This document shows positions 6,396-32,142 of a DNA stretch of 34,499 bases, in pieces. Source of the stretch: an uncultured Archangium sp. (GTDB lineage: Bacteria > Myxococcota > Myxococcia > Myxococcales > Myxococcaceae); assembly GCA_903905455.1 (NCBI GenBank), contig CAIVGN010000070.1:1-34499 (forward strand), given 5' to 3'. Each line of letters begins with the position of its first letter. Within the stretch, counting starts at the first letter, position 1. A model generated the notes under the pieces. That model was not told where the DNA came from. It did no database searches and was given only the letters and a program-made list of their open reading frames with translations. The position numbers were made by a program, and so were the translations under genes.

Positions 6396-6540
6396 ACGTG
6401 CTGAAGCGTAGCACCCATGGTCCCTGCTGCAATGCGTCAGCCTCGTTTGTGATCACGACCCCAGAGTCAATGACGATGAAGTGCGGTGAGCACGCCATTG
6501 TTGCGGAAAGACTCGGCTTGCCAGACTATGGAGGCTCCCC

Positions 6541-7551
6541 ATGGCTGCGCTGTTGACCAAGAGCCTCGGCGTCATCTGCCCGTCCTGCGACTTCCTCAAC
6601 GTCGTCGCGGCCGTGCGCTGCATGGCGTGCGGGTCGGCGACTGACGGCATCGCCCTTTCGACCCCTCGCGCCGAGGTTCCGCGCCTGCAGCCTGCCCCCG
6701 TGGAGGCCAGCCGCGTGGCCGATCGCGAGGCCACCTCCCCCGGGGCGCCCAATCCCCTGCCCCCGGCGCCCACCCCGCCCTCGGCTACGCCGCCGGGCCT
6801 CAAGCGCACCGCGACCGGGCCGACGCCCATTCCGCAGCGCGGGCCGCCGACGCGCCCGACCTTCCAGTCTTCGGCGCCGACGCAGACCACCCCCGCCGTG
6901 GTGCCGGGCCCGAAGATCGGCCTGACGGTGCTCGCGGGGCCGGCGCGCGGCCAGCGCTTCCGCCTGGCCAGCACCGGGGCGCAGATCGGCTGCTCCCGCG
7001 GGGCGATCCTCTTCCCCGACGACCCGTTCGTCTCCCCGCTGCACGCGACGCTGAGCATCCGCGACGGGAAGCTCTTCGTGCGCGACGAGGCCTCGACCTC
7101 CGGCGTGTACGTGAGCATCACCAACACCGAGACCGTGCCCATGGGCGGCACCTTCTGCACCGGCCTTCGCCTCTTCCGCTTCGTCGGCGCCATCGATCCT
7201 GCAGAGCCGTGGAACAAGAGCGACGTGCTGGTCTACGGCTCGACCGTGCCCAACGGCCAGGTGCACTACGCCGTCGAAGAGGTGCTGCTCGGCGATCGCG
7301 GCGGGCGTTGCCTGCTCAGCCCGGGGCCGGTGTTGACCGTCGGCCAGGGGCGCTGCGACTTCAGCTACCCCAACGACGAAGGCCTCGCGCCGCGGCACTG
7401 CGAGATCTCCCCGCTGCCTGACGGGGCGATGATCCGCGACCTCTCCGGGGGCCTCGGCACCTACGTGCGCGTCAGCGGCGAGCGGCCGCTCAAGACGGGC
7501 GACCGGCTGCGCATCGGGCAGCAGACGCTGCAGGTCGAAGCGCTCAGCTGA
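6541..7551 (+). CDS. Zinc-ribbon protein with two FHA domains
   Basis: The start ATG 6541 follows GGAGG by six bases. The 336 residues contain an N-terminal four-Cys zinc ribbon (CPSC at 13-16, CMAC at 27-30), a Pro/Thr-rich linker (about 40-123) and two FHA-like domains (about 126-215 and 255-334). FHA1 keeps the S-x-x-H binding pattern (Ser165, His168). FHA2 has R-H at 285-286 and a G-G-L-G-T turn in place of the usual S-S-N-G-T. FHA domains bind phosphothreonine peptides, so this is probably a reader of a Ser/Thr kinase. The neighbouring kinase (converging, 22 bases away) is the obvious candidate partner, by position only. No membrane segment is visible. Confidence 0.88.
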   Translation: MAALLTKSLGVICPSCDFLNVVAAVRCMACGSATDGIALSTPRAEVPRLQPAPVEASRVADREATSPGAPNPLPPAPTPPSATPPGLKRTATGPTPIPQRGPPTRPTFQSSAPTQTTPAVVPGPKIGLTVLAGPARGQRFRLASTGAQIGCSRGAILFPDDPFVSPLHATLSIRDGKLFVRDEASTSGVYVSITNTETVPMGGTFCTGLRLFRFVGAIDPAEPWNKSDVLVYGSTVPNGQVHYAVEEVLLGDRGGRCLLSPGPVLTVGQGRCDFSYPNDEGLAPRHCEISPLPDGAMIRDLSGGLGTYVRVSGERPLKTGDRLRIGQQTLQVEALS

Positions 7552-7573
7552 AGCGTCACCGCGCTTTCGCCCT

Positions 7574-9133
<1,560 letters not shown>

Positions 9134-9225
9134 GAGCGGTCCCAGACTTCCACGCCGCCGGTCCGGGCGCCACAGCGATTCCCATTCCAGATTCCGGATT
9201 CCGCCCATGCTATGCACGCGGAGTC

Positions 9226-9870
9226 ATGCCTGCTGCCAATCGCCCCCGCGTCGCCGTTCGCGTCGTCCGCGCCGATGGAGGGCCCGAGTCGGTCATCCCC
9301 ATGCGCGGCGATGTCATGTTGTGTGGGCGCACCGGAGATCTCGCGATCGCCGATGATCCCTTCGTCGCCGACACCCAGATGCGCCTGTTCTTCTCGGGCG
9401 CGCGCCTCGCCGTGGAAGACGTCGGCGGGGGCAACGGGGTCTTCACCCGCCTGCGCGCCGAACGGGAAGTCCCCGCCGGTGGCGAGGTGCGCGTCGGTCG
9501 CCAGCGCCTCGTCGTCGAGCCGGTGCCTCCGCTGATGCCCGCCGAAGACGGCGCCACGGCCTGGGGCTCACCCGACGCGGGCCACCGCTTTCGCCTGGTG
9601 CAGCTGCTCGAGGGCGGCATTCGCGGCGGGGCCTTCCCCCTCAAGGACGGGGAGAACGCCATCGGCCGCGAGAACGGCGACATCACCTTCCCCTCCGACG
9701 GCTTCGTCTCGGGGCGCCACGCGGTGCTCCAGGTCGCGCCCGATCGCCTGCTGTTGCGCGATCTCGGCTCGTCGAACGGCACCTTCCTGCGCCTGGGCGC
9801 GCCCTCGTTCGTCGACAACGGAGACCAGTTCCTCATCGGTCGCCAGCTGGTCCGCGTCGAGCTGAGCTGA
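9226..9870 (+). CDS. Tandem FHA-domain protein
   Basis: The 214 residues hold two FHA-like domains and little else. The second (about 130-211) is canonical: IGREN (146-150), S-G-R-H (162-165) and LGSSNGT (180-186), so it should bind phosphothreonine. The first (about 10-98) has the fold signature, with GR at 34-35 and GGGNGV at 67-72. It reads V-A-D-T-Q-M where the S-x-x-H should be, so it has probably lost phosphopeptide binding. ATG 9226 follows a GGAG only two bases away. The gene diverges from the kinase and ends at a clear terminator. It and the zinc-ribbon FHA protein are candidate kinase effectors; that link is inferred from position. Confidence 0.88.
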   Translation: MPAANRPRVAVRVVRADGGPESVIPMRGDVMLCGRTGDLAIADDPFVADTQMRLFFSGARLAVEDVGGGNGVFTRLRAEREVPAGGEVRVGRQRLVVEPVPPLMPAEDGATAWGSPDAGHRFRLVQLLEGGIRGGAFPLKDGENAIGRENGDITFPSDGFVSGRHAVLQVAPDRLLLRDLGSSNGTFLRLGAPSFVDNGDQFLIGRQLVRVELS

Positions 9871-9877
9871 AAGCCCC

Positions 9878-9932
9878 AAAGACGAAGAGCCGGACTCCCC
9901 TCGATGGGAAGACCGGCTCAGGCGTCTTTTTT
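9878..9932 (+). terminator. Rho-independent terminator between FHA gene and dksA
   Basis: A compound hairpin: AAAGACG (9878-9884) pairs with CGTCTTT (9923-9929), and inside it GAGCCGG (9887-9893) pairs with CCGGCTC (9913-9919). A run of six T follows at 9927-9932. It lies between the stops of the two converging genes and may also serve dksA from the other side, though only three A lie on that flank. Confidence 0.8.
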
Positions 9933-9956
9933 CAGGTGAAGAGGGGAAGCGACGGC

Positions 9957-10337
9957 TCAGCCGTACGACTTCTCCTTCTTCTCCTGCTCTTCCTTGCAAC
10001 GGATGCACAGCGTCGTCACGGGGCGCGCCTCGAGCCGCTTCATGCTGATCGGCTCCTCACAGCGCTCACACATGCCAAAGCTGCCGTCCTCGATGCGCTG
10101 GAGCGCCTTCTCAATCTTCTTGAGGAGGAACTTCTCGCGATCGCGCAAACGAAACGCCATCGACTGGGCGTATTCGCTCGACGCCTGATCGATCTCGTCA
10201 GGGAGATCGTCGGTGTCGAAGTTCGACTCTTCTTCCATGGTCTTCCGCGCGTTCTCGATGATGGCCTTTCGGCTGTCCTCGAGGGACTTCTTGAAGCGCT
10301 TCAGATCCTTCTGCGACAGGTGACCCTTTTCGGACAT
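9957..10337 (-). CDS. dksA: DksA/TraR-family RNA polymerase secondary-channel regulator
   Basis: The 126-residue protein shows the DksA plan: an N-terminal helix, a long coiled coil whose tip holds acidic residues (NFDTDDLPDEID), and a C-terminal four-Cys zinc finger (CERC and CIRC). DksA inserts its coiled coil into the RNA polymerase secondary channel and, with ppGpp, re-tunes rRNA and amino-acid promoters. ATG 10337 follows GAGGAG closely. It is slightly shorter than E. coli DksA (151 residues), as many short-form homologues are, so some other TraR-family role is possible. It lies 3.6 kb from relA, whose product makes the co-effector. It has its own predicted promoter. Confidence 0.92.
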   Translation of the reverse strand: MSEKGHLSQKDLKRFKKSLEDSRKAIIENARKTMEEESNFDTDDLPDEIDQASSEYAQSMAFRLRDREKFLLKKIEKALQRIEDGSFGMCERCEEPISMKRLEARPVTTLCIRCKEEQEKKEKSYG

Positions 10338-10369
10338 GGCTCCTCACGGCTGAAAAATGAAGGCGCGGC

Positions 10370-10398
10370 ACTATCAGGAAGCCCGCCCTCCAAGTCAA
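10370..10398 (-). promoter_or_regulatory. Predicted sigma-70-type promoter of dksA
   Basis: Read on the minus strand, TTGACT (10398-10393) is followed after 17 bases by GATAGT (10375-10370). This matches 5 of 6 at -35 and 4 of 6 at -10 with ideal spacing. Transcription would begin near 10363, about 25 bases before the start codon, leaving the GAGGAG ribosome-binding site inside the leader. Confidence 0.55.
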
Positions 10399-10453
10399 GA
10401 CATCTCGAAATAAGCCTTTGAAATCATTTGCTCGATCGTAAGATTCAAGGCTC

Positions 10454-11335
10454 ATGTCGGACACCAATCGACTCGACCGGGAGTTCTTGAGGAGCGCGCT
10501 CGCGCTGGCCAGCACGTCGGAGGTCGATCACCTGCTGGTGATCAGCGACTCGAGCATTCCACCCGCAGACCTGCGCGGGCGCAAGTGCCGCAAGAAGTTG
10601 GTGTACGCGGTGACGCTGGAGGCCCTGGGCCAGGATCTCCTGTCGAAGAAGGAGAAGGCGATCGTCATCCCCGCCTACGACTACTCGCGCACCGAGCGGG
10701 TGAAGATGGCGATCGTCTCGGCGCTCGCGCAGGGGCTCTTCAAGGAAGGCGACGCGGTGCTCTGCCTCACCGGCCGCATCGGGCGCCACATCGACACCAT
10801 GATGACCATGCGCATCGGCGGCTCGCTCGACGATCGCGTGGCCATCGAAGGGGTGAAGCTCGGCGACGAGTTCAACTCGCAGGTGGTCGACGCGTTGATC
10901 CAGCTGGCGCTGCAGATCGGCCAGGAGGGCTTCGAGGGCCACCCCATCGGGACCATCCTCACCATCGGCGATCACAACGCGGTGATGGAGACCAGCCGGC
11001 AGCTCACGCTCAACCCGTTCCAGGGCATCTCGGAGAGCGAGCGCAACGTGCTCGACCCGAAGATCCGCGAGGCGATCAAGAACTTCTCGGTGCTCGACGG
11101 GGCCTTCGTCATTCGCGAAGACGGCGTGGTGCTCGCGGCCGGGCGCTACCTCTCGGCCAGCGACGAGAACGTGAAGATCCCGCTGGGGCTCGGGGCGCGT
11201 CACGCCGCGGCGGCGAGCATCACCGCGACGACCCGCTGCATCGCCCTGGTGGTCAGCCAGACCTCCGGCGCGGTACGCCTGTTCAAAGAAGGCAACATCG
11301 TGCTGGAGCTGCACCAGACCGCGCGCCGCACCTGA
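10454..11335 (+). CDS. DisA_N-domain protein, probable diadenylate cyclase with a pyruvate-kinase-like N-terminus
   Basis: The 293-residue protein has a C-terminal diadenylate cyclase (DAC) domain. The D-G-A motif is at 215-217 and a GARHAAA segment at 247-253 corresponds to the G-x-R-H-R motif of DisA and CdaA. VVSQTSGAVRLF follows at 266-277. DAC enzymes condense two ATP into c-di-AMP. The third residue of the R-H-R motif is Ala here. The N-terminal ~190 residues (for example EKAIVIPAYDYSRT and GDAVLCLTGRIGR) resemble the pyruvate-kinase C-terminal fold, an arrangement known in archaeal DacZ-type enzymes. It is not a DisA, since no DNA-binding HhH region follows, nor a CdaA, since no membrane helices precede. 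A small gene follows after 16 bases. Confidence 0.82.
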   Translation: MSDTNRLDREFLRSALALASTSEVDHLLVISDSSIPPADLRGRKCRKKLVYAVTLEALGQDLLSKKEKAIVIPAYDYSRTERVKMAIVSALAQGLFKEGDAVLCLTGRIGRHIDTMMTMRIGGSLDDRVAIEGVKLGDEFNSQVVDALIQLALQIGQEGFEGHPIGTILTIGDHNAVMETSRQLTLNPFQGISESERNVLDPKIREAIKNFSVLDGAFVIREDGVVLAAGRYLSASDENVKIPLGLGARHAAAASITATTRCIALVVSQTSGAVRLFKEGNIVLELHQTARRT

Positions 11336-11351
11336 AGAAAGGAACGAGACC

Positions 11352-11672
11352 ATGGGAGTCATCAAGTTCGAGGTCCCCAATTCGCTGCCCGTCGACGAAG
11401 CGCGCCAGCGCGTCGAGGCGCTGCTCGGCTACTGGAAGCGCAAGTACGGCGTGACCTCGGCCTGGGAAGGCAGCGGGGCGACGATGAAGGGCAAGGCCGT
11501 GGGCGTCACCATCGACGGCAAGCTCGCCGTCGAGGCGCACCGCATCGCCGGTGAGGCCAGCGACCCCGGGATGCTGCTGCGCGGGCAGGCCCAGAAGTAC
11601 CTCACCCGGAAGTTCGCGGAGTACCTCGACCCCAAGCGCTCGCTGGAGCAGCTGGTGAAGAGCGAGGACTGA
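11352..11672 (+). CDS. Small protein of the polyhydroxyalkanoate-system family
   Basis: The 106-residue protein begins at ATG 11352 after an AAGGA ribosome-binding site. Its pattern (hydrophobic start VIKFEVPN, A-R-Q-R-V helix, W-E-G-S-G, M-K-G-K-A-V-G-V-T-I-D-G-K, then a long C-terminal helix) resembles the small family annotated as putative polyhydroxyalkanoic acid system proteins (PHA_gran_rgn type). Those genes often lie near PHA synthesis genes, but none is seen here. Its biochemical role is unknown. The 16-base gap to the diadenylate-cyclase-like gene suggests co-transcription. The assignment rests on overall pattern only. Confidence 0.7.
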   Translation: MGVIKFEVPNSLPVDEARQRVEALLGYWKRKYGVTSAWEGSGATMKGKAVGVTIDGKLAVEAHRIAGEASDPGMLLRGQAQKYLTRKFAEYLDPKRSLEQLVKSED

Positions 11673-11744
11673 CGTCGGCGCCGAACCCCGATACAGTCAG
11701 GTTGAACCCCACGCGCCGGCGACCCCGCTGAGCGAGGAACCCCT

Positions 11745-14705
11745 TTGAGCAAAGCGAACACCAACGACGGCGAGGCTGATCTGCAGACCGTCATCAAGAA
11801 CGAGTCGAAGCCCCCCATGGTCGAGGCCACCGTGCCTCCCTCGGTGCCGCCGGCCCGGGCCCCGACGCAGCAGGCGCCCCGCTCGCCCGGTTCGTCGCAG
11901 TCGCTGACGCCGGTCACCGGCAACAGCGGCCGTGACTTCACCAGCCCCGGCCAGAAGATGGACGAGCCCGAGGTGGGCACGCGCATTCACCACTACGAGG
12001 TCATCCGCCTGCTGGGCCGCGGCGGCATGGGCTCGGTGTACCTGGCCCGCGACACGCGCCTGGGCCGTCGCGTGGCCATCAAGTTCCTGCGCACGCACTC
12101 GCCCGATCTCACCAAGCGCTTCATTCTCGAGGCCCGCACCACCGCCTCGGTGCAGCACGAGAACATCGTCATCATCTTCGAGGTCGATGCCTGGCAGGGC
12201 ATGCCCTTCATGGTGTTCGAGTACATCACCGGGAACACGCTGAGCAAGGTGGCGCCCGAGACCAAGCCGCTGCCCGCGCCCCGCGTCGCCGAGCTGATCG
12301 TGCCGGTGGTCAAGGCCCTCGCCTACGCCCACAGCCAGGGCATCGTTCACCGCGATCTCAAGCCCGACAACATCATGATCACCGACTCGGGCCAGACCAA
12401 GGTGCTCGACTTCGGCATCGCCAAGGTGCTCCAGAGCGACGAGCAGACGCCCTCGGCGATCTCCCGCCCGCGGGCCCCGAAGACCAACCTCGAGGACGAG
12501 GACGACGCGGAGCTCACGCAGCAGGGCGCGATGATGGGCACCCTCTCGTACATGGCCCCCGAGCAGTGGGGCATCGGCGTGCCCATCGACCACCGGGCCG
12601 ACATCTGGGCGGTGGGCATCATGATGTTCAAGATGTTGACCGGGAAGCACCCGCTGGACCCGCTCAAGGGCCACCAGTTGATGGTCACCGGCATGCTCGA
12701 TACGCCCATGCCCTCGCTCAAGAGCAAGTCGACCGACGTGCCGCCGGAGCTCGCGGCGATCGTCGACCGCTGCCTGCTCAAGCGCAAGGAGCAGCGCTTC
12801 CCCGACGCGGTCACCCTGCTGCGGGCCCTCGAGCCCTTCATGCCCGGGCGCTACACCCGCGAGCTGAAGATCGACGAGAGCCCCTACGCCGGCCTCGCCG
12901 CGTTCCAGGAGATCGACGCCAACCGGTTCTTCGGCCGCGGCGCGGAGATCGCCGCCACCGTCAACCGCGTGCGCGAGCGCCCGCTGATCGCCGTGGTCGG
13001 GCCCTCGGGCGCCGGCAAGTCCTCCTTCGTGCGCGCCGGCCTCGTGCCCGCGCTCAAGCGCTCGGGCGAGAACTGGGAATCGCTGGTGCTCCGGCCCGGC
13101 AGGAGCCCCCTCGCCGCGCTGGCCTCGTTGATCTCGCCCATGCTCGGCACCTCGGTGTCCATCGCCGACGAGATGGCCGAGCAGAAGAAGCTCGAAGAGC
13201 GCCTGGTCAAGGAGCCTGGCTTCGTCGGCGCGGTGCTCCGCGGCCGCGCCCGGCGCGAGAAAAAGAACATCCTCCTCTTCGTGGACCAGTTCGAGGAACT
13301 CTACACGCTGGTGCCCGACCTCGCCGAGCGCAAGGCCTTCACCGCCTCGCTGGCGGCCGTGGCCGACGACGCGACGTCGCCCATTCGCCTGGTGCTCTCG
13401 GTGCGCAGCGACTTCCTCGACCGCGTGCCCGAAGACGCGCGCTTCATGGCAGAGCTCAGCCAGGGACTGGTGTTCCTCAACTCGCCGGGCACCGAGGGGC
13501 TGCGCGAGGCCATCGTCGCCCCCGCGGAGCTCGCCGGGTACAAGTTCGAGTCGCAGGACATCGTCGACGACATGCTCAAGCACCTGGCGACGACGCAGGG
13601 GGCGCTGCCGCTGCTCCAGTTCGCCGCCTCCAAGCTGTGGGACGCCCGCGACGCCGCCAACAAGCAGCTCACCAAGGCCGCCTACGAGGCCATCGGCGGG
13701 GTCGCCGGCGCGCTCGCCAGCCACGCCAACGCGGTGCTCGAGAAGCTCTCGCCGCAGGTGCAGCCCCTGCTGCGCGCGATCTTCCTGCGCCTGGTGACGC
13801 CGGATCGCACCCGCGCCATCGTCAGCATGGACGAGCTGCGCGAGCTCCACACCAACCCCACCGAGATCCAGAACCTCGTCGACGAGCTGGTGCAGGCGCG
13901 CCTGCTGGTGGTGCAGACCGGCGGCGGCGCGGCCACCGTGGAGATCGTCCACGAGTCGCTCATTCACAGCTGGCCGATGCTCAAGCGCTGGCTCGAAGAG
14001 AGCGGCGAAGACTCGGCGTTCCTCGACCAGATCCGCAGCGCGGCCCGGCAGTGGACGCAGAAGGGCCAGGCCGAAGATCTCCTCTGGCGTGGCGAGCTGG
14101 CCGAAGAGGCGCTGCGCTTCTCGCGGCGCTACCGCGGTACCCTGCCAGGCGCGCAGAAGGCCTTCGTCGACGCGGTCATCGAGCTGACGGCGCGGCAGGC
14201 CCGGCGCAAGCGCGGGCTGACCATCGCGGCGATCGCCTTCCTGGGGCTCCTGGCGGCGGCGGCCTCGGTGGCCCTGGTGATCATCGCGGGCGCGCGGGCC
14301 GAGGCGCAGGAGAAGGCCACCGTGGCGCTCCTCGCCGAAGCCGACGCGCGCAAGAACCTCGAGAAGGCCCAGGTGCGCGAACGCGAGCGCGACGAGGCCG
14401 CGGCCAAGGCCGAGAAGTCAGCCTCGGAGCTGGCGGTGGCGCTGACCCAGGCCACCCAGGCCACGGCCCAGGCCGAGTCGGCGCAGCGGGCCGCCGAGGT
14501 GGCCGCCGACCTGGCGAAGAAGGCCGAGGCCAACGCGCGGCTCAACGCCAAGAGCGCGCTCGAGGCGAAGCAGGCGGCCGAGGTGGCCCGCAAGTTCGCC
14601 GAGAGAGAGCGGCTCAAGGCAGACAAGTTGAAGGCCGAAGCCGAAGCCCGGGCGCGACGCATCGAAGAGCAGCTCGGCAGCTCGGTGATCGACGATCTCA
14701 AGTGA
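11745..14705 (+). CDS. Ser/Thr kinase fused to an nSTAND ATPase with membrane helix and coiled-coil tail
   Basis: The 986-residue protein starts at TTG 11745 with GAGG seven bases upstream. After a disordered Pro/Ser-rich N-terminus, the kinase domain spans about 84-365: GRGGMGSVY (91-99), Lys113, HRDLKPDN (202-209), DFG (222-224) and APE (271-273). An acidic insert (LEDEDDAE, about 249-256) sits in the activation segment. Residues about 380-700 form a STAND-type P-loop ATPase of the nSTAND1 kind: SPYAGLAAF lead-in, FFGRGAE, Walker [10 protein letters not shown] (419-427) and Walker [11 protein letters not shown] (509-518). A membrane helix at about 825-848 precedes a 138-residue Ala/Glu/Lys-rich coiled coil, which would be extracytoplasmic. 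nSTAND kinases usually end in WD40 or TPR repeats; none is seen. It heads a four-gene operon. Confidence 0.93.
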
Positions 14706-14719
14706 GGGGACGAAGGACC

Positions 14720-15721
14720 ATGACGACTGGGAAATGGACCGCGATCGCGGTGGCAGCGGTGCTGGCGTGTGCTTCGTTCGCCTTCGCCGAAGAAGTCGAG
14801 CGCCCGTGGGCGAAGGGCGTGCCCAAGGATCGCCAGGCCCGGGCCATCGCCTTGTTCCGTGAAGGGAACGCGGCGCTCAAGGAGTCGCTCTTCCCCAAGG
14901 CGGCCGGCACCTACAAGGAGGCCCTCGCCGTCTGGGACCACCCCGCGGTGCACTACAACCTCGCCCTGGCCCTGGTGAACCTCGACCAGCCGCTCGAGGT
15001 GCACGAGCACCTCACCGCGGCGCTCCGGTTCGGCCCGGCCCCACTGGACGATGACAAGTTCCAGCAGGCGCAGCGCTACCTCGCGCTGATCGAGCGGCAG
15101 CTGACCAAGGTCAAGGTGTCGTGCACCTACGCCGGCGCCCAGGTGCGCCTCGACGGCCGCCCCCTCTTCACCGCCCCCGGCTCGTGGGAAGGCCAGCTGC
15201 GCGCCGGCCCGCACACGTTGACCGCCTCGCAGGACGGCCTGTTGCCCGATGAGCGCTCGGTGGTGCTCGCCGGCGGCGACACCCAGACCTTCGAGCTGAA
15301 GGTCTTCAGGACCGAGGAACTGACCGAGTACCGCCGGGCCTTCAGCCCGGTCATTCCCTGGGTCGTCCTGGGCACGGGCGCGGCGTTGATCGGCACGGGC
15401 GTGGCCCTGCACCTCACGGCGAGCACGGGGTTCCAGGCCTATGACACCGGCATCAAGAACTGCGCGACCTCGAGCGAGAGCGGCGGGTGCTACCCGGTGC
15501 CGACGCTCCAGGAGACCCGCCTCGCGGCGCAGGCCCAGCAGACGGCAGCCATCGCGATGTACGCGGTCGGCGGCGCCGCCCTGGTCGGCAGCGCAGTGCT
15601 CTTCTACGTGGGCCGGCCCATCGCCTTCCAACGCACCCTGAACGTCGAGGCCCCGCGCGTGACGCTGGTGCCGATCATCACGCCCACCACCACCGGCGCC
15701 CTCGCGTCCTTCGAATTCTGA
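14720..15721 (+). CDS. TPR/PEGA-domain envelope protein with two membrane segments
   Basis: The ATG at 14720 lies 14 bases after the kinase gene, with AAGGA just upstream. The 333-residue product has a signal peptide ending AFA near residue 23 and TPR-like helices (about 38-125; ALFREGNAALKESLFPKAAG, then YNLALALVNL). A PEGA-like beta domain follows (about 131-196; AQVRLDGRPLF, then RAGPHTLTASQDG). Two hydrophobic segments (about 211-233 and 276-298) flank a loop with two Cys (248, 257), which could form a disulfide. It ends FEF. PEGA domains are surface-associated beta modules, and TPRs bind peptides or proteins. Likely a periplasmic or envelope scaffold working with the upstream kinase and the downstream lipoprotein; the link is positional. 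Confidence 0.82.
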   Translation: MTTGKWTAIAVAAVLACASFAFAEEVERPWAKGVPKDRQARAIALFREGNAALKESLFPKAAGTYKEALAVWDHPAVHYNLALALVNLDQPLEVHEHLTAALRFGPAPLDDDKFQQAQRYLALIERQLTKVKVSCTYAGAQVRLDGRPLFTAPGSWEGQLRAGPHTLTASQDGLLPDERSVVLAGGDTQTFELKVFRTEELTEYRRAFSPVIPWVVLGTGAALIGTGVALHLTASTGFQAYDTGIKNCATSSESGGCYPVPTLQETRLAAQAQQTAAIAMYAVGGAALVGSAVLFYVGRPIAFQRTLNVEAPRVTLVPIITPTTTGALASFEF

Positions 15722-15729
15722 GACACCCC

Positions 15730-18700
15730 ATGAACCTCCTTCGACGACTCAGCATCGCGAGCCTGATGCTCGCTGCCAGCGCGTGCTTCGACACCACCAC
15801 CGCCACCTGTTCCAGCGGCCTGGTGTGCCCGGTGGGCTCGGTGTGTTCGGCCAGCGGCGACCAGTGCATCTCGCCCACCTCGCTGTGCGGCAACGGCGTC
15901 AAGGACACCCTGCCCGACGGCGGCGCCGAGTACTGCGACGACGGCAACCAGCGAAACGGCGACGAGTGCCGGGCCGACTGCAAGGGCGCGGGCATCTGCG
16001 GCGACGGCAACGTCGACAGCGACGTGCGCGACGCGCAGGGCAAGCCCCTCGAGGAATGTGACGACGGCAACAAGACGCCTGGCGACGGGTGCAACGCGCT
16101 GTGCCACGCCGAGCGCTGCGGCAACGGCGAGCGGGACATGCTCAGCGACGGCAGCTTCGAGCAGTGTGACGACGGCAACAACACCCTGGGTGACGGGTGC
16201 CGCGGCAACTGCACGCTGGAGCTGTGCGGCGACGGCGAGCGCACCAACTTCAACGACGGCGGCATGGAGCAGTGCGACGACGGAAACACCGTCAGCGGCG
16301 ACGACTGCAGCGCGACCTGCAAGGCCGAGCGCTGCGGCAACAACGTGCGCGACGTGCTCCACGACGGCGGCCTCGAGGCCTGCGACGACGACGTGGCCAC
16401 CTGCAACAGCGCCTGCGTGATCGTCGCCTGTGGCAACACCTTCGTGGAGAACGCCGACGGGGGCCGCGGCCAGGGCCGGGAGATCTGCGACGACGGCAAC
16501 CTCGACGGTGGCGACGGCTGCCGCGCCGACTGCCTGGGCTTGGAGCGCTGCGGTGACGGGCTGCGCGACCCGGCGCTGCGCGATGGCGGCTTCGAGATCT
16601 GCGACGACGGGAACGTCGACGGTGGCGACGGCTGCAGCGCCGACTGCCGCTCCGACGAGAGCTGCGCCAACGGCCTGTTCGACCCCCTGGCCGGCGAACT
16701 GTGCGACGACCACAACCGGACCTCGGGCGACGGGTGCCGGGCCGATTGCAGGGGCCTCGAGCGCTGCGGGGACAACAACCGCGACGCGGTGCTGGTCGAC
16801 GGCGGCACCGAGCAGTGCGACGACGGCAACCTGACCGCGGGCGACGGCTGCAGCGCGCTGTGCCGCTTCGAAGTCTGCGGGAACAACTTCGTCGACCCCG
16901 GAGAGCTCTGCGACGACGGCAACCAGGCGTCGGGCGACGGCTGCCGCGCTGACTGCAAGGGCCTCGAGCGCTGCGGCGACAACAACCGCGACGCGGTGCT
17001 GCTGGACGGCGGCGCCGAGCAATGCGACGACTTCAACCTCACTGCGGGTGACGGCTGCAGCGCGCTGTGCCGCTTCGAGGTGTGCGGGAACACCGTCATC
17101 GACCCCGGAGAACTGTGCGACGACGGCAATCTCGCCCCCATCGGCCCCACCGACAACTGCTCGTCGGACTGCCGGTCGACGGGTACCTGCGGCAACTCCA
17201 CCGTGGAAATCGGCCTCAACGAGCAGTGTGACGAGGGTTCGACGAACAACGTGGACACCGGCTCGTGTACCTCGCAGTGCAAGCTCGCCCGCTGTGGCGA
17301 CGGACTGGTACACACCGGCGTCGAGCAGTGCGACACCTCGGGCGAGTCGGCGACCTGCAACGTCAACTGCACCTCGCGCCGCTGCGGCGACGGCATCATC
17401 AACGCGTCGGCCGGCGAACAGTGCGACGTGTCGGGCGCGGTGACGGGCACCGAGACGACCACGTGCGACACCGACTGCACCGCGGCGTTCTGCGGCGACA
17501 GCAAGGTGAACCTCGCGCGCAACGAGCAGTGCGACACCGGCGGAAACTCGGCGTCCTGCAACTCGAACTGCCGCCCCGCCCTGTGCGGCGACAGCGTCCT
17601 CAACACCGCGGCCGGCGAGCAGTGCGACACCGGCGGCAACACGACCTATTGCGACAACGACTGCTCCCCCGCGGCCTGCGGCGACGGCTTCTTCAACAAC
17701 GTGGCCGGCGAGCAGTGCGACGATGGCAACTCGCTCAACACCGACGACTGCGTGACCGGCTGCCGCGCGAACGTGTGCGGCGATGGCTTCCGCGATCAGC
17801 AGGGCCCGGTGACCGAGGCGTGCGACGACGGCAACACGGTCAGCGAGACGGCCTGCGCCTATGGCACGGTGTCCTGCACCACCTGCAACGCGAGCTGTAC
17901 CGGGGTGCTGACGCTGGCCGGCCCGCGCTGCGGCGACGGCACCACCAACGGGCCCGAGGTCTGCGACGACGGCAACACCGCCACCGAGACCGCCTGCGTG
18001 TACGGCACGGCGACCTGCACGGGCTGCACGGCCAACTGCGCCGCCCAGTTCTCGCTCACCGGCCCGCGCTGCGGTGACGGCACCCTCCAGGCGGCCAACG
18101 GCGAGACCTGCGACGACGGCAACACCGTCACCGAGGCCACCTGTCCCTACGGGCCGGGGACCTGCAGCGTGTGCAACGCCGACTGCCGCGGCAGCACCGC
18201 GCGCACCGGCCCGTCGTGCGGCGACGGCACGATCAACGGCACCGAGATCTGCGACGACGGCAACACCACCACCGAGACCGCGTGCCCCTACGGCACCGCG
18301 AACTGCACCGCCTGCACCGCGAACTGCGCGGCCCAGCTCTCCCTGACCGGGCCCCGCTGCGGCGACGGCATCTCCCAGGCGGCCAACGGCGAGACCTGCG
18401 ACGACGGCAACACCATCACCGAGGCCACCTGCCCCTACGGCACGGCGAGCTGCAGCGTGTGCAACGCCGACTGCCGCGGCAGCACCGCGCGCACCGGCCT
18501 GTTCTGCGGCGACGGCCTGGTCAACGGCACCGAGGCGTGTGACGACGGCAACACCGTCACCGAGGCCGCCTGCGCCTACGGCACCGCCTCGTGCACCGGC
18601 TGCGCGGCGAACTGCGGCGCCCAGTACTCGCTGACCGGCCCCACCTGCGGCGACGGCGTGACCAACGGCACCGGGGTGAACCTCGAGACCTGCGACGACG

Positions 18701-19641
18701 GGAACACCACCACCGAGACTGCGTGCCCCTACGGCCAGGCGACCTGCTCGTCGTGCCGCAACGACTGCAAGGCGACCTTGAGCCTCACCGGCGCCACCTG
18801 CGGGGACGGCACGACCAACGGCGCCGAGGTGTGCGACGACGGCAACACCACCACCGAGGCGAGCTGCACCTACGGCACGCCGACGTGCAACGTGTGCAAC
18901 GCCACCTGCACCGCGCAGCTGCCGCGGACCGGCGCGTTCTGCGGCGACGGCACGACCAACGGTACCGAGGTGTGCGACGACGGCAACGCCACCACCGAGG
19001 TGACGTGCCCCTACGGCCAGGCCTCGTGCACGCGCTGCAACGCGACCTGCGCGGCCCCGCTCACGCTGACCGGCGGCGTCTGCGGCGACGGCGTGGTCAA
19101 CGCGCCCAACGAGCAGTGTGACGACCGGAACACCCTGGCCTGCGGCACCTGCAACGCCAACTGCACGCTGGCCCAGACGCCGCTCGAGGCCCAGGGCACG
19201 ATCAAGACCGAGACGGAGAACAACACCAACGACGGGGAGACCTTCACCCTCAACGACGGGGTGAACCCGGCGACGGTGTTCTGCTTCAAGGCGACGGCGA
19301 TGTCGGCGTGCACCGGGGCGCAGGTGGTGGTCGACCTCACCGGCGCCGGCAACTCGACCACCAGTGAAGTGGGCGACCTGATCGTCGCGGCGGTCAACTC
19401 GGTGGGCGGCACGCTGGCGGTGACCGCGAGCAAGCGCACCACCCAGCCCTTCGTGCGCCTCACCAACGACGCCATCGGTGGCTTCGGCAACCAGGCGCTC
19501 AGCGAGACCGTGGTCGACGTCGACTTCGTGGTGACGGGCATGAGCGGCGGCGGCGCGGCCGACTGCGCCAACGGCACGGGCTGCATGACGGGCAACGACT
19601 GCCTCTCGGGCGTGTGCACCACGGGTGCCTGCGCTCCGTGA
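15730..19641 (+). CDS. Giant cysteine-rich repeat lipoprotein (DUF4215/Myxococcus CDDGN repeats)
   Basis: The ATG at 15730 lies eight bases after the PEGA gene; the product is 1303 residues. A short signal peptide ends in a lipobox-like ASAC (Cys19), so it is probably lipid-anchored. From residue 53 I count 28 tandem modules, each beginning CGDG or CGN and containing C-DDGN. Modules 1-18 mostly have four Cys (CGDG..., CDDGN, GC, C). Modules 19-27 have six, with an added T-E-T-A-C-P-Y-G...C..C insertion and a regular 47-51 residue period. A non-repeat domain of about 150 residues follows, with a Cys-rich tail ending TTGACAP. Such repeats are abundant in myxobacterial surface and secreted proteins; function is not established. 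The C-terminal 4 bases overlap the next gene (GTGA). Confidence 0.92.
15886..19179 (+). repeat. 28 tandem cysteine-rich coding repeats
   Basis: Module 1 starts at Cys53 (base 15886) and module 28 at base 19081. Early modules vary from about 30 to 41 residues and include a degenerate one (module 5, with CDDD replacing CDDGN). Modules 9-10 and 11-12 are near-identical pairs ([10 protein letters not shown]...CRFEV then CGN...[10 protein letters not shown]). From module 19 a second, six-Cys type takes over. The array looks like growth by unequal exchange of one- and two-module blocks. Confidence 0.9.
17929..18504 (+). repeat. Two tandem 288-base copies (modules 20-21 and 22-23)
   Basis: Bases 17929-18216 and 18217-18504 are each exactly 288 bases and encode the same alternating pair of modules: one ending in an L-T-G-P-R type linker, the next carrying [12 protein letters not shown] and RGSTARTG. 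Only scattered substitutions separate them (for example TTNGPEV versus TINGTEI). This is a recent two-module duplication. Confidence 0.85.
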
Positions 19642-20924
19642 GCGAGCCGGGCGTGGGCCGCAAAGGGTCGACGCTCTACCTCCAGGTGCTGGCCGGCGTG
19701 GGCCTGGGCGTCGCCCTGGGCGTGGCACGGCCCGAGTGGGCGGTGGCGCTCAAGCCGCTGGGTGAAGGCTTCGTGGGGCTGATCAAGATGTTGATCGGCC
19801 CCATCGTCTTCACCACCGTCACCGGCGGCATCGCGGGCATGGGCGATCTCAAGAAGGTGGGCCGGGTCGGGGCCAAGGCGCTGCTGTGGTTCGAGTTGAT
19901 GACCACCGCGGCCCTGGTGCTGGGCCTGGTGATCGTCACGGTGATCGGCCCGGGCCGGGGCATTCACGCGAAGGTCGAGGCGCTGGACACCGCGCAACTC
20001 GACAAGACGCTTTCGGCGCCCCACCCCCAGGGCGTGGTGGAGCACCTGGTGGCCTTGGTACCCCAGAGCTTCGTGGGCGCCTTCGTCGGGGGTGACGTGC
20101 TGCAGGTGCTGGTGCTGGCGGTGCTCTCGGGCATCGCGCTGGCGGGACTGGGAGAGCGCGGCAAGCCGGTCCTCGCGGGCCTCGATCAGATCGCCGGGCT
20201 GTTCTTCGCGATCATCGGGGTGGTGATGCGCCTGGCCCCGGTCGGCGCGTTCGGCGCCATGGCCTTCACCATCGGCAAGTACGGCGTGGGCGCGCTGGGG
20301 AACCTCCTGCTGCTGATCGTCAGCTTCTACGCCACGTCGCTGCTGTTCGTCTTCGGGGTGCTCGGCGCGGCGCTCAAGCTCGTGGGCCTGTCGATCTTCC
20401 GCCTGGTGCGGCACCTCAAGGAGGAGCTGGTGCTGGTGCTGGGCACCTCGTCGTCCGAGTCGGCCCTGCCCTCCCTGATGACCAAGCTCGAGGCCCTGGG
20501 CTGCAGCGGGCCGGTGGTGCGGCTGGTGGTGCCCACGGGCTACTCCTTCAACCTCGACGGCACCTGCATCTACCTGACGATGGCCAGCGTCTTCGTGGCC
20601 CAGGCGCTCGACGTGCCGCTGACGCTGGGTGAACAACTCTCGCTGCTGGCGGTGCTGTTGCTGACCTCCAAGGGGGCCGCCGGGGTGACGGGCAGCGGCT
20701 TCGTGACGCTGGCGGCGACGCTGCAGTCGGTGGGCACGGTGCCGGTGGCCGGGCTCTCGTTGCTGCTGGGCATCGACCGCTTCATGTCGGAGGCGCGCGC
20801 GCTGACCAACCTCGTGGGCAACGCGGTGGCGACGCTGGTGGTGGCCAGGTGGGAAGGCGCGCTCGACCTCGAAAAGGCCCGCGCCACGCTCGAGCCGAAG
20901 CCCGACGCGCTACGGGTGCGCTGA
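19638..20924 (+). CDS. dctA: DctA-type proton/sodium-coupled C4-dicarboxylate transporter
   Basis: The 428-residue multi-helix protein belongs to the dicarboxylate/amino acid:cation symporter (SDF) family. Signature segments are GTSSSESALPSLMTKLEALG (hairpin 1 and TM7), GYSFNLDGTCIYLTMA (the N-x-D-G-T cation-site motif) and SKGAAGVTGSGFVTLAATL (hairpin 2), the last in the form typical of DctA rather than glutamate carriers. It should import succinate, fumarate and malate across the inner membrane. The start GTG 19638 overlaps the lipoprotein stop by four bases (GTGA), and no ribosome-binding site is obvious, so translation is probably coupled. Its last 15 bases overlap the converging MinD-PilZ gene. 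Its place in an operon with envelope signalling proteins is unusual. Confidence 0.92.
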   Translation: MSEPGVGRKGSTLYLQVLAGVGLGVALGVARPEWAVALKPLGEGFVGLIKMLIGPIVFTTVTGGIAGMGDLKKVGRVGAKALLWFELMTTAALVLGLVIVTVIGPGRGIHAKVEALDTAQLDKTLSAPHPQGVVEHLVALVPQSFVGAFVGGDVLQVLVLAVLSGIALAGLGERGKPVLAGLDQIAGLFFAIIGVVMRLAPVGAFGAMAFTIGKYGVGALGNLLLLIVSFYATSLLFVFGVLGAALKLVGLSIFRLVRHLKEELVLVLGTSSSESALPSLMTKLEALGCSGPVVRLVVPTGYSFNLDGTCIYLTMASVFVAQALDVPLTLGEQLSLLAVLLLTSKGAAGVTGSGFVTLAATLQSVGTVPVAGLSLLLGIDRFMSEARALTNLVGNAVATLVVARWEGALDLEKARATLEPKPDALRVR

Positions 20925-22211
20925 AGCGTCCTCGGCGCGGCGCAGCGCCTCGTCGAGCACCCGGGGGAACGACTCGGTCGAGGCGAACTCCACCCCGCCC
21001 AGGGCCTTGCCGGAACGGACGCTGCGCACGAGCACCTCGAGGTGCGGCGCCCCCTCCAGGGTACTGAAGGAGATGGTCCACCTCGAGCCGCGCTCGAGGG
21101 GCTCGGCGGTGGACACCAGCGCCCCCGACCGGGACAGCTCGGTGACCTGCCCCTCACAGCTGAGGGTTCCATTGCTGAGCTTGACGTTGAGTTCGACGGG
21201 CACGCGGGCATGGCGCCGCTGGGTCGGCGAGAGGTCCACCGGCAGCGGCTCGGCGCGGGGGGGCGCGGCGGCGAGCTCGGCCAGCACCTCGGCCTCGGCG
21301 CGGGCCCGCCGCAGCGCCTTGACGTCGACGTCGAGCAGCACCTTCGCCGCGGCGTGGAGCGCGAGCATCGACGGGTCCCGGATCGGGTCGAGCAACCACG
21401 GCCGCCGGTTGTTGACCGACTCGTGCACCTTGCGGCTTGCGCGCAGCGAACCGATCACCGGCGCCTCGACCGAGAGAAAGTCGGAGATCATGCGCGAGAC
21501 CGAGTGCGCGACGGAGCTCTCGTGGGCCTCGACCACCTGGTTGCCCAGCAGCGAGACGCCCATGGAATCGAGGAGCGCGGAGATGGCCCGCGCGAAGCCC
21601 GGGCTCTCGGCCCGCACCCGGGTGAGCAGCCCGCGCATGCGCGCCGTGTCCTGGCCCTGCCCGTCACCCAGGAGCTCGAGCTGCTCGGGGCCCTGGGCGA
21701 GCTGGCGCAGCAGGCGGTGCACCGCGCCCTTCAGGAAGGCATAGGCGTTCTGCACCGAGGTGAGCTGCGGGGTGGTCACCACGAGCCGCAGATCGGCGAC
21801 GTTGAAGACGTCCAGGGCGTTGAAGCTGGTACCGGCGCCGACATCGACCACCACCACGTCGGCGTCGAGGGCCGACACGTGGCGCAGCAGCTTGAGCTTC
21901 TGGGTGTGGGCGAGGTTCGCGGCGCCGGGGTGCGCGGGGCTGCCGGCGATGAGCTCGAGGTTCGGGACGAGGGTCGGCAGCCGGGCCTCGGCCAGGGAGC
22001 AGATCTCCTGGTTGAAGAGGCTGTCGAGCGTGCGCGGGAGCCGGTCGACCCCCAACAGGGTGTGGAGGTTGGGGGCCCCGAGGTCGGCGTCGACCAGGAC
22101 CACCCGGCGGCCGCACTGGGCGAAGGCCACGGCGAGATTGGCCGAGACGAGGCTCTTGCCCACGCCCCCTTTGCCACCTCCCACCGAGATGATTCGCCCC
22201 GCCTCTTTCAT
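20910..22211 (-). CDS. MinD/ParA-family ATPase fused to a C-terminal PilZ domain
   Basis: From ATG 22211 the protein has 433 residues. The first ~290 are a MinD/FlhG-like deviant-Walker ATPase: GGGKGGVGKS (11-20), DADLGAPNLHTLLG (41-54) and VVVVDVGAG (119-127). A linker leads to a PilZ domain (about 331-425) with the RxxxR motif (RRHAR, 332-336) and T-E-L-S-R-S-G, where canonical domains have D/N-x-S-x-x-G. MinD/ParA proteins are ATP-switch dimers that position cell structures; FlhG sets flagellum placement. PilZ could tie this to c-di-GMP. It shares the Glu substitution with the small PilZ protein at 1817-2200. A GTG at 22277 would add 22 residues ahead of the conserved start and is less likely. 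Confidence 0.9.
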   Translation of the reverse strand: MKEAGRIISVGGGKGGVGKSLVSANLAVAFAQCGRRVVLVDADLGAPNLHTLLGVDRLPRTLDSLFNQEICSLAEARLPTLVPNLELIAGSPAHPGAANLAHTQKLKLLRHVSALDADVVVVDVGAGTSFNALDVFNVADLRLVVTTPQLTSVQNAYAFLKGAVHRLLRQLAQGPEQLELLGDGQGQDTARMRGLLTRVRAESPGFARAISALLDSMGVSLLGNQVVEAHESSVAHSVSRMISDFLSVEAPVIGSLRASRKVHESVNNRRPWLLDPIRDPSMLALHAAAKVLLDVDVKALRRARAEAEVLAELAAAPPRAEPLPVDLSPTQRRHARVPVELNVKLSNGTLSCEGQVTELSRSGALVSTAEPLERGSRWTISFSTLEGAPHLEVLVRSVRSGKALGGVEFASTESFPRVLDEALRRAEDASAHP

Positions 22212-22322
22212 GACGGGACCAGCTGATCGCAAGGTTCGCGCCCACGGGGCCTTCCGCCCGGACGGGAACGATTTCACCGGGTCATCCGTGGTCGCGAAGT
22301 CGTGGCGACCCCAGCCATCGGC

Positions 22323-24092
22323 TCAGTCCAGCCGGGGGCCGCGCTTCTTCTGCAACAGGGCGCTCGCTTCGAGCACATCGGTGTACGTGAGCTGCCCTTC
22401 GGCGCCCTGGCTCAGCTCGGCGGCATTCGCCTCGTCGGTGTCGAGGTGCATCTCGAGGCGGTACTTGGGGCTGACACGGACCAGCACGTCGCCGAACACG
22501 AGATCGCGCGGCCCGCCGACGATGGCCACCTCGACTTCGTCCCCGTCGACCACGTCGTAGGCGGTGGCGTCGTCGGGCCCCATGTGAATGTGCCGCTTGG
22601 CGCAGATGAGGCCCTCGGGGAGATGCACGGTGCCCTTCGGCCCCTCGAGGGTGATGGGCGCGCTGCCGGCCACCTTGCCCGAGTCGCGGATGGGCGCGTC
22701 CACGCCGAGGACGAACTCGTCGCTGCGGCTGATCTCCACCTGGCTGGCGGAGCGCAGGGGCCCCAGGAGCCGCACGCCGTTGATGCGGTTGCGCGGCCCG
22801 ATGACGTTCACCTTCTCTTCGCAGGCGTACTGGCCGGGCTGGCTGATGTCCTTGAGCCGGGTGGGCGTGGCGTCGGCGCCGAACAACTGCGCGAAGGTGG
22901 CCGCGTCGAGGTGGAGGTGCCGGGCGGAGATCGCGATGGGGATGGGCCGGGGGCTCTTCACCGCGGTCTTCTCGCGCACCAGGCCCACGGTCTGCCGGGC
23001 AATGGACAGCTCCTCGTCGGTCTTCACCACCATCGCCGCCACGCGCGAATGCGGCGCGGAGATGGTGGCCACGGGCTGGTCGCGGGTCACCTTCGCGTCG
23101 GCGTTGCGATCGTCGTCGAACACCAGGCCGAGGAAGTCGAAGCGCTGGAGCATGCGGTTGCGCATGGCCACGGCGTTCTCCCCGATGCCCCCGGTGAGCA
23201 CCACGGCGTCGAGGCCGCCCATCACCGCGGCGTAGGCCCCGATGTACTTGCGCACGCGGTGGGCGAAGACGGACACGGCGAGGCGGCAGCGATCATCGCC
23301 CTCGGCGGCGCGTTGCTCGATGTCGCGCAGATCGTTGCTCACCCCCGAGAGCCCGGCGAGGCCGGCGCGCGAGTTGAGCAGCACGTCGAGGGAGCTGGCG
23401 TCGAAGTCGCCGCTGCGCAGCAAGGTGAGGAGCACGCCGGGGTCGAGATCTCCACCGCGGGTGCCCATGACCAGGCCGTCGAGGGGCGTCAGGCCCATGC
23501 TGGTCTCGGTCGAGTGGCCGAACTCCACCGCGCAGGCGCTCGCGCCGTTACCGAGGTGCAGGGTGACGAGGCGCAGCTCGCTCAGGGGGCGCTGCAGGTG
23601 CTTGGCCGCGAGCTCCGCGACGTAGGCGTGGCTGGTGCCGTGGAAGCCGTAGCGGCGCAGGTCGTACTTTTTCGCCACCTCGAGATCGAGGGCGTAGGTG
23701 CGGGCGCGGCGCGGCATGCGGGCGTGGAACGCGGTGTCGAAGACCGCGACCTGGGGCAGCAAGGGGAACGCGGCCCGCGCGGCGCGGATGCCGGCGAGGT
23801 TGGCGGGATTGTGCAGGGGCGCGAGCGGAATGCAGGCCTCGATGCCCTTCTCGACGGCGTCGTCGACAAGGGTGGCGTCCACGAACTTTTCCCCGCCGTG
23901 CACCACGCGGTGGCCGATGGCGCCGAGGTTCAGCCCTTTCACCTCGGCGAAGACCTGGGCGAGCGCCTCGGCGTGGGTGACGGCCTGTCCGATGCGCTCG
24001 ACCTGGCCCTGGCGCAGCACCGCCGAGGTGGCGGTGTCGATGACCTGGAACTTCACGCTCGAGCTGCCCGAGTTGAGGACGAGGACGTTCAT
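22323..24092 (-). CDS. ackA: Acetate kinase fused to PduL-type phosphotransacylase
   Basis: One 589-residue frame contains two enzymes. Residues 1-372 are a complete acetate kinase (NSGSSSVKF at 7-15, HRVVHGG 61-67, FDTAFH 118-123, GFHGTSH 149-155, GTRGGDLDPG 210-219, GGIGENA 301-307). Residues about 383-559 are a PduL phosphotransacylase with its metal-binding motifs RHLHL (391-395), RHIHM (500-504) and MHLDTDEANA (548-557). PduL makes acyl-phosphate from acyl-CoA, and acetate kinase uses it to make ATP; in reverse, the fusion would activate acetate. A fusion channelling acetyl phosphate would follow. Normally these are separate genes; here they join without a stop or frameshift. ATG 24092 is chosen because it gives the family's MNVLVLNSGS start. 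A basic 30-residue tail follows. Confidence 0.95.
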   Translation of the reverse strand: MNVLVLNSGSSSVKFQVIDTATSAVLRQGQVERIGQAVTHAEALAQVFAEVKGLNLGAIGHRVVHGGEKFVDATLVDDAVEKGIEACIPLAPLHNPANLAGIRAARAAFPLLPQVAVFDTAFHARMPRRARTYALDLEVAKKYDLRRYGFHGTSHAYVAELAAKHLQRPLSELRLVTLHLGNGASACAVEFGHSTETSMGLTPLDGLVMGTRGGDLDPGVLLTLLRSGDFDASSLDVLLNSRAGLAGLSGVSNDLRDIEQRAAEGDDRCRLAVSVFAHRVRKYIGAYAAVMGGLDAVVLTGGIGENAVAMRNRMLQRFDFLGLVFDDDRNADAKVTRDQPVATISAPHSRVAAMVVKTDEELSIARQTVGLVREKTAVKSPRPIPIAISARHLHLDAATFAQLFGADATPTRLKDISQPGQYACEEKVNVIGPRNRINGVRLLGPLRSASQVEISRSDEFVLGVDAPIRDSGKVAGSAPITLEGPKGTVHLPEGLICAKRHIHMGPDDATAYDVVDGDEVEVAIVGGPRDLVFGDVLVRVSPKYRLEMHLDTDEANAAELSQGAEGQLTYTDVLEASALLQKKRGPRLD

Positions 24093-24224
24093 GGGCCGGG
24101 AGGCTACACCCCGCGCGCCGCGGTGATTCACCACAAGGAGCAGGCCCGGGGCCGCGAATGCGTGCCTCGAGGCCCCCGCCCTCTATGACCCCACCCGTCA
24201 GCGCAGATTCGTAGAGTCCGGGGC

Positions 24225-27492: not shown

Positions 27493-27590
27493 CGTAGCCT
27501 CCCGTTGCACTCCCCGATTCCCGCCGCTGCGCCGATGCCCGCGTCGCAATCGAAAGTTGCTTCCGCGATCACGGAACCAGCGCCTACCCG

Positions 27591-27606
27591 AGCATTCGAC
27601 ATGCCA
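27591..27606 (-). promoter_or_regulatory. Sigma-54 (-24/-12) promoter of tadG-tadE
   Basis: On the minus strand the sequence is TGGCATGTCGAATGCT. Against TGGCACG-N4-TTGCW it differs at two positions, and the invariant GG and GC are 12 bases apart. Transcription would start near 27580, about 88 bases before the tadG start codon. Sigma-54 promoters need an enhancer-binding activator; none is encoded here. Confidence 0.65.
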
Positions 27607-27806
27607 ATCCGAGCCTCCGAACTTCAGCGGGCTTTAGCGCGATCGCCTCAGGCGACTGCACGCATGGGTTGCGGACCGGTCCAGATAGTGCGCTCTACCT
27701 ACGACGACCTCGCCTGCACTGCGTCCCCCAAGCCGTAACGCACACAGAGTATTGGACATCGGCGATTGCCGGAACACCAACCGCTACATGCTGTGTTCGC
27801 AGTGAG

Positions 27807-27818
27807 GTGAGCGCTCAC
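27807..27818 (+). promoter_or_regulatory. Perfect 12-base palindrome, possible operator
   Basis: GTGAGCGCTCAC is self-complementary over all 12 bases and lies 24 bases ahead of the preferred start of the membrane protein gene, a usual place for a dimeric repressor site. No cognate regulator is identified. Confidence 0.3.
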
Positions 27819-27841
27819 GAATATTGCAGCCACACGCCGTG

Positions 27842-29383: not shown

Positions 29384-29411
29384 ACCACCCATTTCCACAA
29401 TACAGTTTCCG

Positions 29412-32128: not shown

Positions 32129-32142
32129 AAGGACGGTAGCCC

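Follow-up and report, generated by a model that had tools for sequence, protein, structure and literature searches.

Four genes stand almost end to end on the plus strand of a 34,499-nucleotide contig from an uncultured Archangium sp. Do they work as one unit, and if so, at what? The contig (hereafter the window) is C70 of a 251-contig, 8.6-Mb genome that is 97.8% complete. KIN (11745-14705; 986 amino acids (aa), TTG start) joins a kinase domain, an nSTAND1 domain, one transmembrane (TM) helix, a coiled-coil-like region and a C-terminal tail. TPR-PEGA (14720-15721; 333 aa) has a signal-peptide-like start and TPR-like helices, then a PEGA-like sandwich, a pair of long hydrophobic helices and, at its C terminus, a beta hairpin. 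LIPO (15730-19641; 1303 aa, 143 Cys) is a cysteine-rich repeat lipoprotein of the DUF4215/TIGR02232 type, and dctA (19638-20924) encodes a C4-dicarboxylate symporter. We find that KIN, TPR-PEGA and LIPO form a conserved module of social, predatory Myxococcota, usually present together, with dctA outside it, and that the three proteins probably constitute one signalling system across the envelope.

The first-pass annotation of the window had read the four genes as one operon, and the layout that it gave is borne out. All are open reading frames (ORFs) on the same strand; 14 bases separate KIN from TPR-PEGA, 8 separate TPR-PEGA from LIPO, and the GTG start of dctA overlaps the TGA of LIPO by 4 bases. 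The TTG start of KIN agrees with congener orthologues (L039-L042), which align from residue 1. A single transcript for all four is plausible. A scan of 11200-21200 found no sigma-70-like promoter and two terminator-like sites, both on the minus strand, against a shuffle mean of 4.2, which at 70% GC is weak evidence.

Conservation was read from overlapping collections in which all counts include related species, ORF starts were set by simple rules, and many contigs of metagenome-assembled genomes (MAGs) are cut at their ends. In 40 loci fetched around TPR-PEGA orthologues and picked by TPR-PEGA score, a KIN-type match adjoins TPR-PEGA in 38, a LIPO-type match in 39 and DctA in one, some of the loci ending before dctA could be seen. 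Exceptions for KIN are L044, where a contig start leaves only the end of KIN, L059, cut by the contig end, and L075, with none; that for LIPO is L042, also cut by the contig end.

Scanning named genomes yielded 69 loci, some of them shared with the set of 40. Here nSTAND lies upstream in 54, a cysteine-rich ORF downstream in 61, and both in 51; among the incomplete loci, seven have no upstream sequence, two have no downstream sequence, and nine others do not show all three genes. TPR-PEGA and LIPO occur without KIN at L093, L125 and L136, KIN occurs with no LIPO ORF called at L138, and neither partner is present at L134, L143, L144, L145 and L147 (at L144 a kinase domain lies directly upstream but has no nSTAND, and at L147 the match is fragmentary, with E 5e-5). 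Among the named carriers are Archangium, Corallococcus, Pyxidicoccus, Hyalangium, several Myxococcus species, Anaeromyxobacter oryzisoli and Kofleriaceae MAGs. M. xanthus was not listed as a carrier in this pattern-based scan, which may explain why the set has escaped notice.

At the level of the phylum, 195 Myxococcota genomes were searched with thresholds chosen after earlier hits had been seen. TPR-PEGA (profile A1, E<=1e-20) was found in 72 genomes and KIN-type nSTAND (E<=1e-100) in 72, and the two sets are identical (Fisher p 2.9e-55, nominal since the species are related). In 82 of the 94 KIN-type nSTAND matches, TPR-PEGA lies 0.6-1.4 kb downstream on the same strand. Of the remaining 12, six have their TPR-PEGA on a different contig, as breaks in the assembly could produce, four are additional copies in genus g12, and the last two come from G076 and G193. 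In G193 the genes are rearranged but close, KIN standing in divergent orientation to TPR-PEGA and a DUF4215-like stretch. The LIPO tail profile (E<=1e-8), tallied by genome and not by adjacency, matches in 66 of the 195, made up of 64 of the 72 triad-type genomes and 2 of the 123 others.

No fourth universal neighbour emerged: the next best family occurs in 14 of 82 distinct loci, as counted with a crude ORF caller that itself finds KIN in 73, TPR-PEGA in 57 and LIPO in 56 of the 82. Chance adjacency of the three genes is not credible. Thus, the proposed four-gene unit stands for its first three members, whose synteny is conserved across Myxococcota, and falls for dctA, which adjoins the triad only in the window and in one congener.

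The domains of KIN suggest what the module does. A Hanks-type Ser/Thr kinase domain (11994-12800, residues 84-352; PF00069, 159.8 bits against a cut-off of 31.7) is followed by a STAND NTPase domain of the nSTAND1 family (12882-14075, residues 380-777; PF20703, 382.7 bits against 27.1). The catalytic Lys113, HRD and DFG of the former and the Walker A and DQFEE of the latter are invariant in 40 of 40 aligned orthologues. Hydropathy predicts one TM helix (14229-14285, residues 829-847), after which a charged region and the tail (14286-14702) are predicted to be periplasmic, the label coiled-coil-like being a reading of the sequence and not the output of a coil program. The part beyond the helix measures 126-190 residues among orthologues, and its end is conserved in part, with G978 and L985 invariant in the 40-row KIN alignment A3 and LK at the end of 35 of 40 tails. 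Because KIN is the sole nSTAND1 match (E<=1e-10) in its 8.6-Mb genome, its placement in the triad is more than chance.

StkP and PknB are the best PDB matches of the kinase domain. Like these PASTA-type kinases, KIN has a cytoplasmic Hanks kinase, one TM helix and an extracytoplasmic part, but nSTAND1 stands between its kinase and its helix, and neither Pfam nor NCBIfam yields a PASTA match (NF033483, 256.4 bits against a cut-off of 450).

Among nSTAND1 proteins, those of the triad are set apart. Their nSTAND domains (54 rows) form one clade, with support of 100/100, against 14 long-branched nSTAND1 domains from G003, G027 and G040, and the nearest named rows to KIN of the window are Archangium-type Myxococcota MAGs. 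The other domains are 28-39% identical to that of the window. Matches per genome number one each in G000 and G092, both in the triad, 2 in G003, 4 in G027 and 10 in G040. Eleven of the 14 other proteins had an open frame and were scanned, several frames running off the fetched stretch: eight are Pkinase-nSTAND1-FGE-sulfatase proteins, five of them with a hydropathy TM helix, two have WD40 (one with CHAT), and one is Pkinase-nSTAND1 without a named C-terminal domain. The library that detects the FGE/CLec sensor in those eight finds none in KIN. The plan of a kinase, an nSTAND and a sensor is thus present in the phylum, and the triad would have separate proteins in the sensor's place.

Genus g12 has four extra KIN copies, and the three that were read (L181, L182, L186) have neither TPR-PEGA nor LIPO adjoining. 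The HRD Asp is lost in L181 and L186 and the catalytic Lys in L182; the tail is lost in all three, with the TM-like stretch and the coil remaining. Loss of the tail in partnerless copies, in this one lineage, fits a tail that serves the partners.

In the TPR-PEGA protein of the window, TPR matches in Pfam and NCBIfam fall below cut-off and PEGA (PF08308) is unmatched; 19 of 50 orthologues match PEGA at E<=0.01, the best at 2.1e-6. An AF2 model (mean pLDDT 91.7) has five TPR-like array helices at residues 36-127, a transthyretin-like sandwich at 128-205, long helices at 211-251 and 261-297, and then the C-terminal beta hairpin before the final Phe. The PDB structures that match it best do so over a part only, transthyretin-like carboxypeptidase domains and TPRs being among them. 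Cys 248 and 257 (window 15461-15490), in the loop between the two hydrophobic helices, are near-invariant in the 32-row alignment A1 and less than 90% conserved in the 50-row A2.

LIPO begins with a lipobox (ASA-C) whose Cys codon lies at 15784-15786 (residue 19), with Phe at +2. Short-type repeats, starting 30-40 residues apart, occupy residues 53-682 (15886-17775), and long-type repeats, starting 47-51 residues apart, run from residue 683 (17776-19179), overlapping a tandem array in the DNA (period 141; 17813-19092). A conserved C-terminal, or tip, domain follows (19189-19638). The protein scores 222 bits for DUF4215 (cut-off 27) and 343.9 bits for TIGR02232 (cut-off 20.8) with 20 TIGR02232 stretches, and a simple motif counts 28 repeat starts. 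Its head is family-specific and conserved (the lipobox Cys, then roughly C-x-SG-x-VCP-x-G-x-x-C). The tail is family-specific and conserved in most Myxococcaceae-type members, no named family matching it consistently beyond the repeat itself; Kofleriaceae-type members (e.g., L096, L107, L131) have different ends. No PDB relative of LIPO was found by sequence at E<=1.

Predicted lipid anchoring recurs across the family. One pattern finds the lipobox in 59 of 62 LIPO heads, and a looser one, which passes at least one false case (L141), in all 62. The +2 residue is never Lys or Asp in these heads; Lys at +2 is given as the inner-membrane rule for M. xanthus lipoproteins in the portion of PMC3222651 at hand. 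By these signs, a lipobox with no retention residue at +2, LIPO is a predicted outer-membrane lipoprotein. From the lipobox Cys on, the Cys count is odd in 45 of 48 LIPO (nominal p 6.6e-11, as repeats add even numbers and the rows are thus not independent), which is expected because one Cys would be lipidated and the rest paired.

The length of LIPO is 360-1691 aa in closed ORFs, plus 2801 aa in L075; the shortest, L098 (360 aa), appears truncated, and L091 (1691 aa) contains masked bases. The small genome G076 (2.9 Mb; L075/L093, L117, L136, L184, L185) has three TPR-PEGA genes and two KIN genes, linked in part, alongside LIPO-type proteins that range from 577 to 2801 aa. DUF4215 matches in G000 lie on six contigs.

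The tip domain was modelled as part of a 200-residue fragment, with block pLDDT of 87-97 over residues 51-170, and its fold resembles surface domains of phage tails and FliD. Against PDB, phage sheath and FliD domains match weakly (best E 6.2e-4; query TM-score 0.33-0.38 in the upper rows), and against BFVD the domain matches phage proteins (best E 6e-11, 31% identity, TM-score 0.55), of which two are baseplate J-like. The domain was also seen in open frames away from triads in G013, G040, G128, G129, G132 and G143, and in G040 the same frame length carries DUF4215 matches. It may be a reusable surface module.

Taken together, synteny, co-occurrence, domains, conserved catalytic residues, the lipobox and cysteine parity are the basis on which we regard the triad as probably one trans-envelope signalling system, running from the surface to the cytoplasm by way of LIPO, TPR-PEGA and KIN. 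LIPO would be a lipid-anchored, disulfide-bonded repeat stalk bearing the conserved tip, probably on the outer membrane. TPR-PEGA would be a periplasmic adaptor held in a membrane by its helical hairpin. KIN would be an inner-membrane protein, its kinase and nSTAND ATPase facing the cytoplasm and its coiled-coil-like region and tail the periplasm. A surface event might alter LIPO, TPR-PEGA might relay the change to the tail of KIN, and the nSTAND module might then activate the kinase on cytoplasmic targets. In such a system, separate proteins would replace the FGE/CLec sensor that is fused behind the same kinase-nSTAND core in related Myxococcota proteins. The earlier suggestion that the parts would span the envelope is supported at the level of prediction. 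Localisation, contacts, signalling direction, ligand and substrate we infer.

Several observations weigh against this signalling path. A signal-peptide-like start was found in 32 of 50 called TPR-PEGA ORFs, some of the others resembling start-site errors, and the topology of the protein from charge counts is ambiguous; under the signal-peptide topology, its loop Cys pair would be cytoplasmic. The KIN tail motif is loose, with 24 of 40 fitting a relaxed form of LGSxVIDxLK. Eight of the 72 triad-type genomes gave no LIPO tail (one of them, G004, being cut by the contig end), and the tail is also present elsewhere. G076 has PEGA-LIPO pairs unlinked from KIN as well as a lone KIN. Finally, there is no obvious output gene beside KIN.

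The first-pass annotation held that no system of this composition had been described, and none was found in the literature searched. No literature on DUF4215 or TIGR02232 was found; neither of the nSTAND1 papers (PMC8195603, PMC10907252), as far as their available portions go, deals with this triad, nor does the available portion of PMC7159879. The nearest relatives are the putative antigen sensors with kinase-nSTAND1-FGE/CLec architecture, which, in the same portions of PMC10907252 and PMC8195603, share the Pkinase and nSTAND1 core with KIN. KIN differs from them in having no FGE/CLec or WD40, in its coiled-coil-like region and tail, in two conserved partner genes and in its separate clade. 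As to a diversity-generating retroelement nearby, no reverse transcriptase appears among the 18 window genes scanned with Pfam, which are a part of all those in the window.

Two further systems resemble the triad more distantly. In Rcs envelope sensing, the outer-membrane lipoprotein RcsF signals to an inner-membrane phosphorelay. The likeness is one of outline, from outer-membrane lipoprotein to inner-membrane kinase, with no homologous part claimed, and the triad uses a Ser/Thr kinase and an ATPase whereas Rcs uses a histidine phosphorelay. The cysteine repeats of TraA are proposed, in the available part of PMC3325183, as a rigid stalk that presents a recognition domain at the myxobacterial surface. 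This stalk idea is common to LIPO and to TraA/TraB outer membrane exchange of Myxococcus, as an analogy only: TraA has TIGR04201 repeats, PA14 and MYXO-CTERM, whereas LIPO has TIGR02232/DUF4215 repeats, a lipobox and another tip domain, and TraAB has no kinase gene whereas the triad has KIN. LIPO as a TraA-type receptor was rejected, PA14, TIGR04201 and MYXO-CTERM being unmatched in it at E<=0.01 in Pfam and NCBIfam.

Could the triad instead serve in conflict or defence, with LIPO sensing phage, predator or non-kin and the kinase-nSTAND protein triggering a protective or suicidal response? nSTAND1 is named in counter-invader systems in the part of PMC8195603 available and occurs with sensors diversified by diversity-generating retroelements (DGRs), of the FGE type, in that of PMC10907252; such kinase-nSTAND1-FGE proteins are the majority of the relatives scanned above. 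LIPO is also less conserved than KIN in 66 of 66 close pairs and less than TPR-PEGA in 55 of the 66 (computed without the truncated L098 and without counting gap columns), and its tip has the phage-tail and FliD likeness. On the other hand, PADLOC does not assign the genes to PD-T4-6, MADS or MkoA, as KIN matches partially and the other three genes not at all; the 25 of 36 PADLOC matches listed for KIN all begin within the kinase domain, none of them extends past residue 439, and they lie in the kinase part. Toxin, protease, TIR and nuclease families are missing from the Pfam and NCBIfam matches of the four genes. Unlike a mobile defence island, moreover, the triad keeps a fixed place beside a diadenylate cyclase gene (DAC) in part of the family (12 of 82 loci). 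We consider a defence role unlikely.

An envelope-maintenance role is in our judgement rather improbable. In that reading TPR-PEGA and LIPO would have structural or assembly duties, and KIN would do no more than control how they are made or what state they are in. The triad is mostly single copy in genomes that have it, and a disulfide-rich stalk would suit a coat. An essential structural role sits poorly with a presence that is patchy in genera g23 and g26, where single-contig genomes are among those that lack the triad, and it is not clear why a coat should need a dedicated kinase-ATPase with a conserved tail.

As for dctA, the gene product is a DctA by SDF and DctA models over cut-off (NF002461, 578.6 against 513 bits). 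Beyond the window it adjoins the triad at L041 of the congener G002 and at L081, one of the 69 named loci and apparently on the same contig. Other congeners have relatives of 29-30% identity (G003, G005), a partial one of 43% (G004) and a fragment of 79% at a contig start that cannot be placed (G001), and orthologues in G006 (74%) and G012 (58%) have no triad gene in the 12-16 kb fetched. The first-pass suggestion of a coupling to C4-dicarboxylate uptake is not supported by these counts, the four-gene unit with dctA is rejected on synteny, and dctA is most likely a lineage-specific passenger. In genus g12 (L181, L182, L186), the degenerate KIN lies next but one to a divergent DctA of 53-55% identity, with a 564-570 aa P-loop protein between. 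As a second DctA-KIN neighbourhood this also counts against leaving dctA aside, and a small probability is kept for a real link. That the kinase system controls DctA or senses through it is nevertheless very improbable: the overlapping frames, the congener and the g12 paralogue speak for it, but 39 of the 40 fetched loci show no DctA beside the triad (some ending too early to tell), G003 and G005 have only their distant relatives, and the g12 paralogues are catalytically degenerate and divergent from dctA.

The surroundings of the triad in the window were also read. Upstream (4203-11672) lie RelA/SpoT, two FHA proteins, another Ser/Thr kinase, DksA, a DacZ-like diadenylate cyclase (DAC) and a PHA_gran_rgn protein (PHA), a second-messenger and stringent-response neighbourhood. 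DAC, PHA and a DksA-like gene are each found again ahead of the triad at 12 of the 82 distinct loci, and DAC with PHA as a general shared operon was rejected on that count. Downstream, on the minus strand, are a MinD/ParA-like ATPase with a fused C-terminal PilZ domain (20910-22277) and an acetate kinase fused to a PduL-type phosphate acyltransferase (22323-24134; PF00871 and PF06130), as if the Pta-AckA pathway were in one protein. GC falls to about 62-67% at 27001-34499, and third-position GC is 0.71-0.78 in five of the six ORFs called from 27824 on, compared with about 0.93-0.96 in the four genes. This stretch, outside the triad, is possibly horizontally acquired or a contig join.

Immune-like and developmental signalling in complex bacteria classically involves STAND ATPases and Hanks kinases, but to our knowledge how they would read extracellular events is mostly unknown. 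We tentatively raise a further idea, doubtful as it is: the triad may represent a new receptor class, a STAND-regulated Ser/Thr kinase in which two separate proteins stand in for the fused antigen-type sensor. One would be a periplasmic adaptor, the other a giant, disulfide-locked surface stalk, variable in its repeats and tipped with a phage-tail/FliD-like domain. Prey, kin or phage touching the myxobacterial surface would then switch the NLR-like ATPase and the kinase within the cell. The tail of KIN and the LIPO tip domain are two handles for finding partners and ligands, and the triad as a whole is a complete candidate path from the cell surface to the cytoplasm that simple deletions can test.

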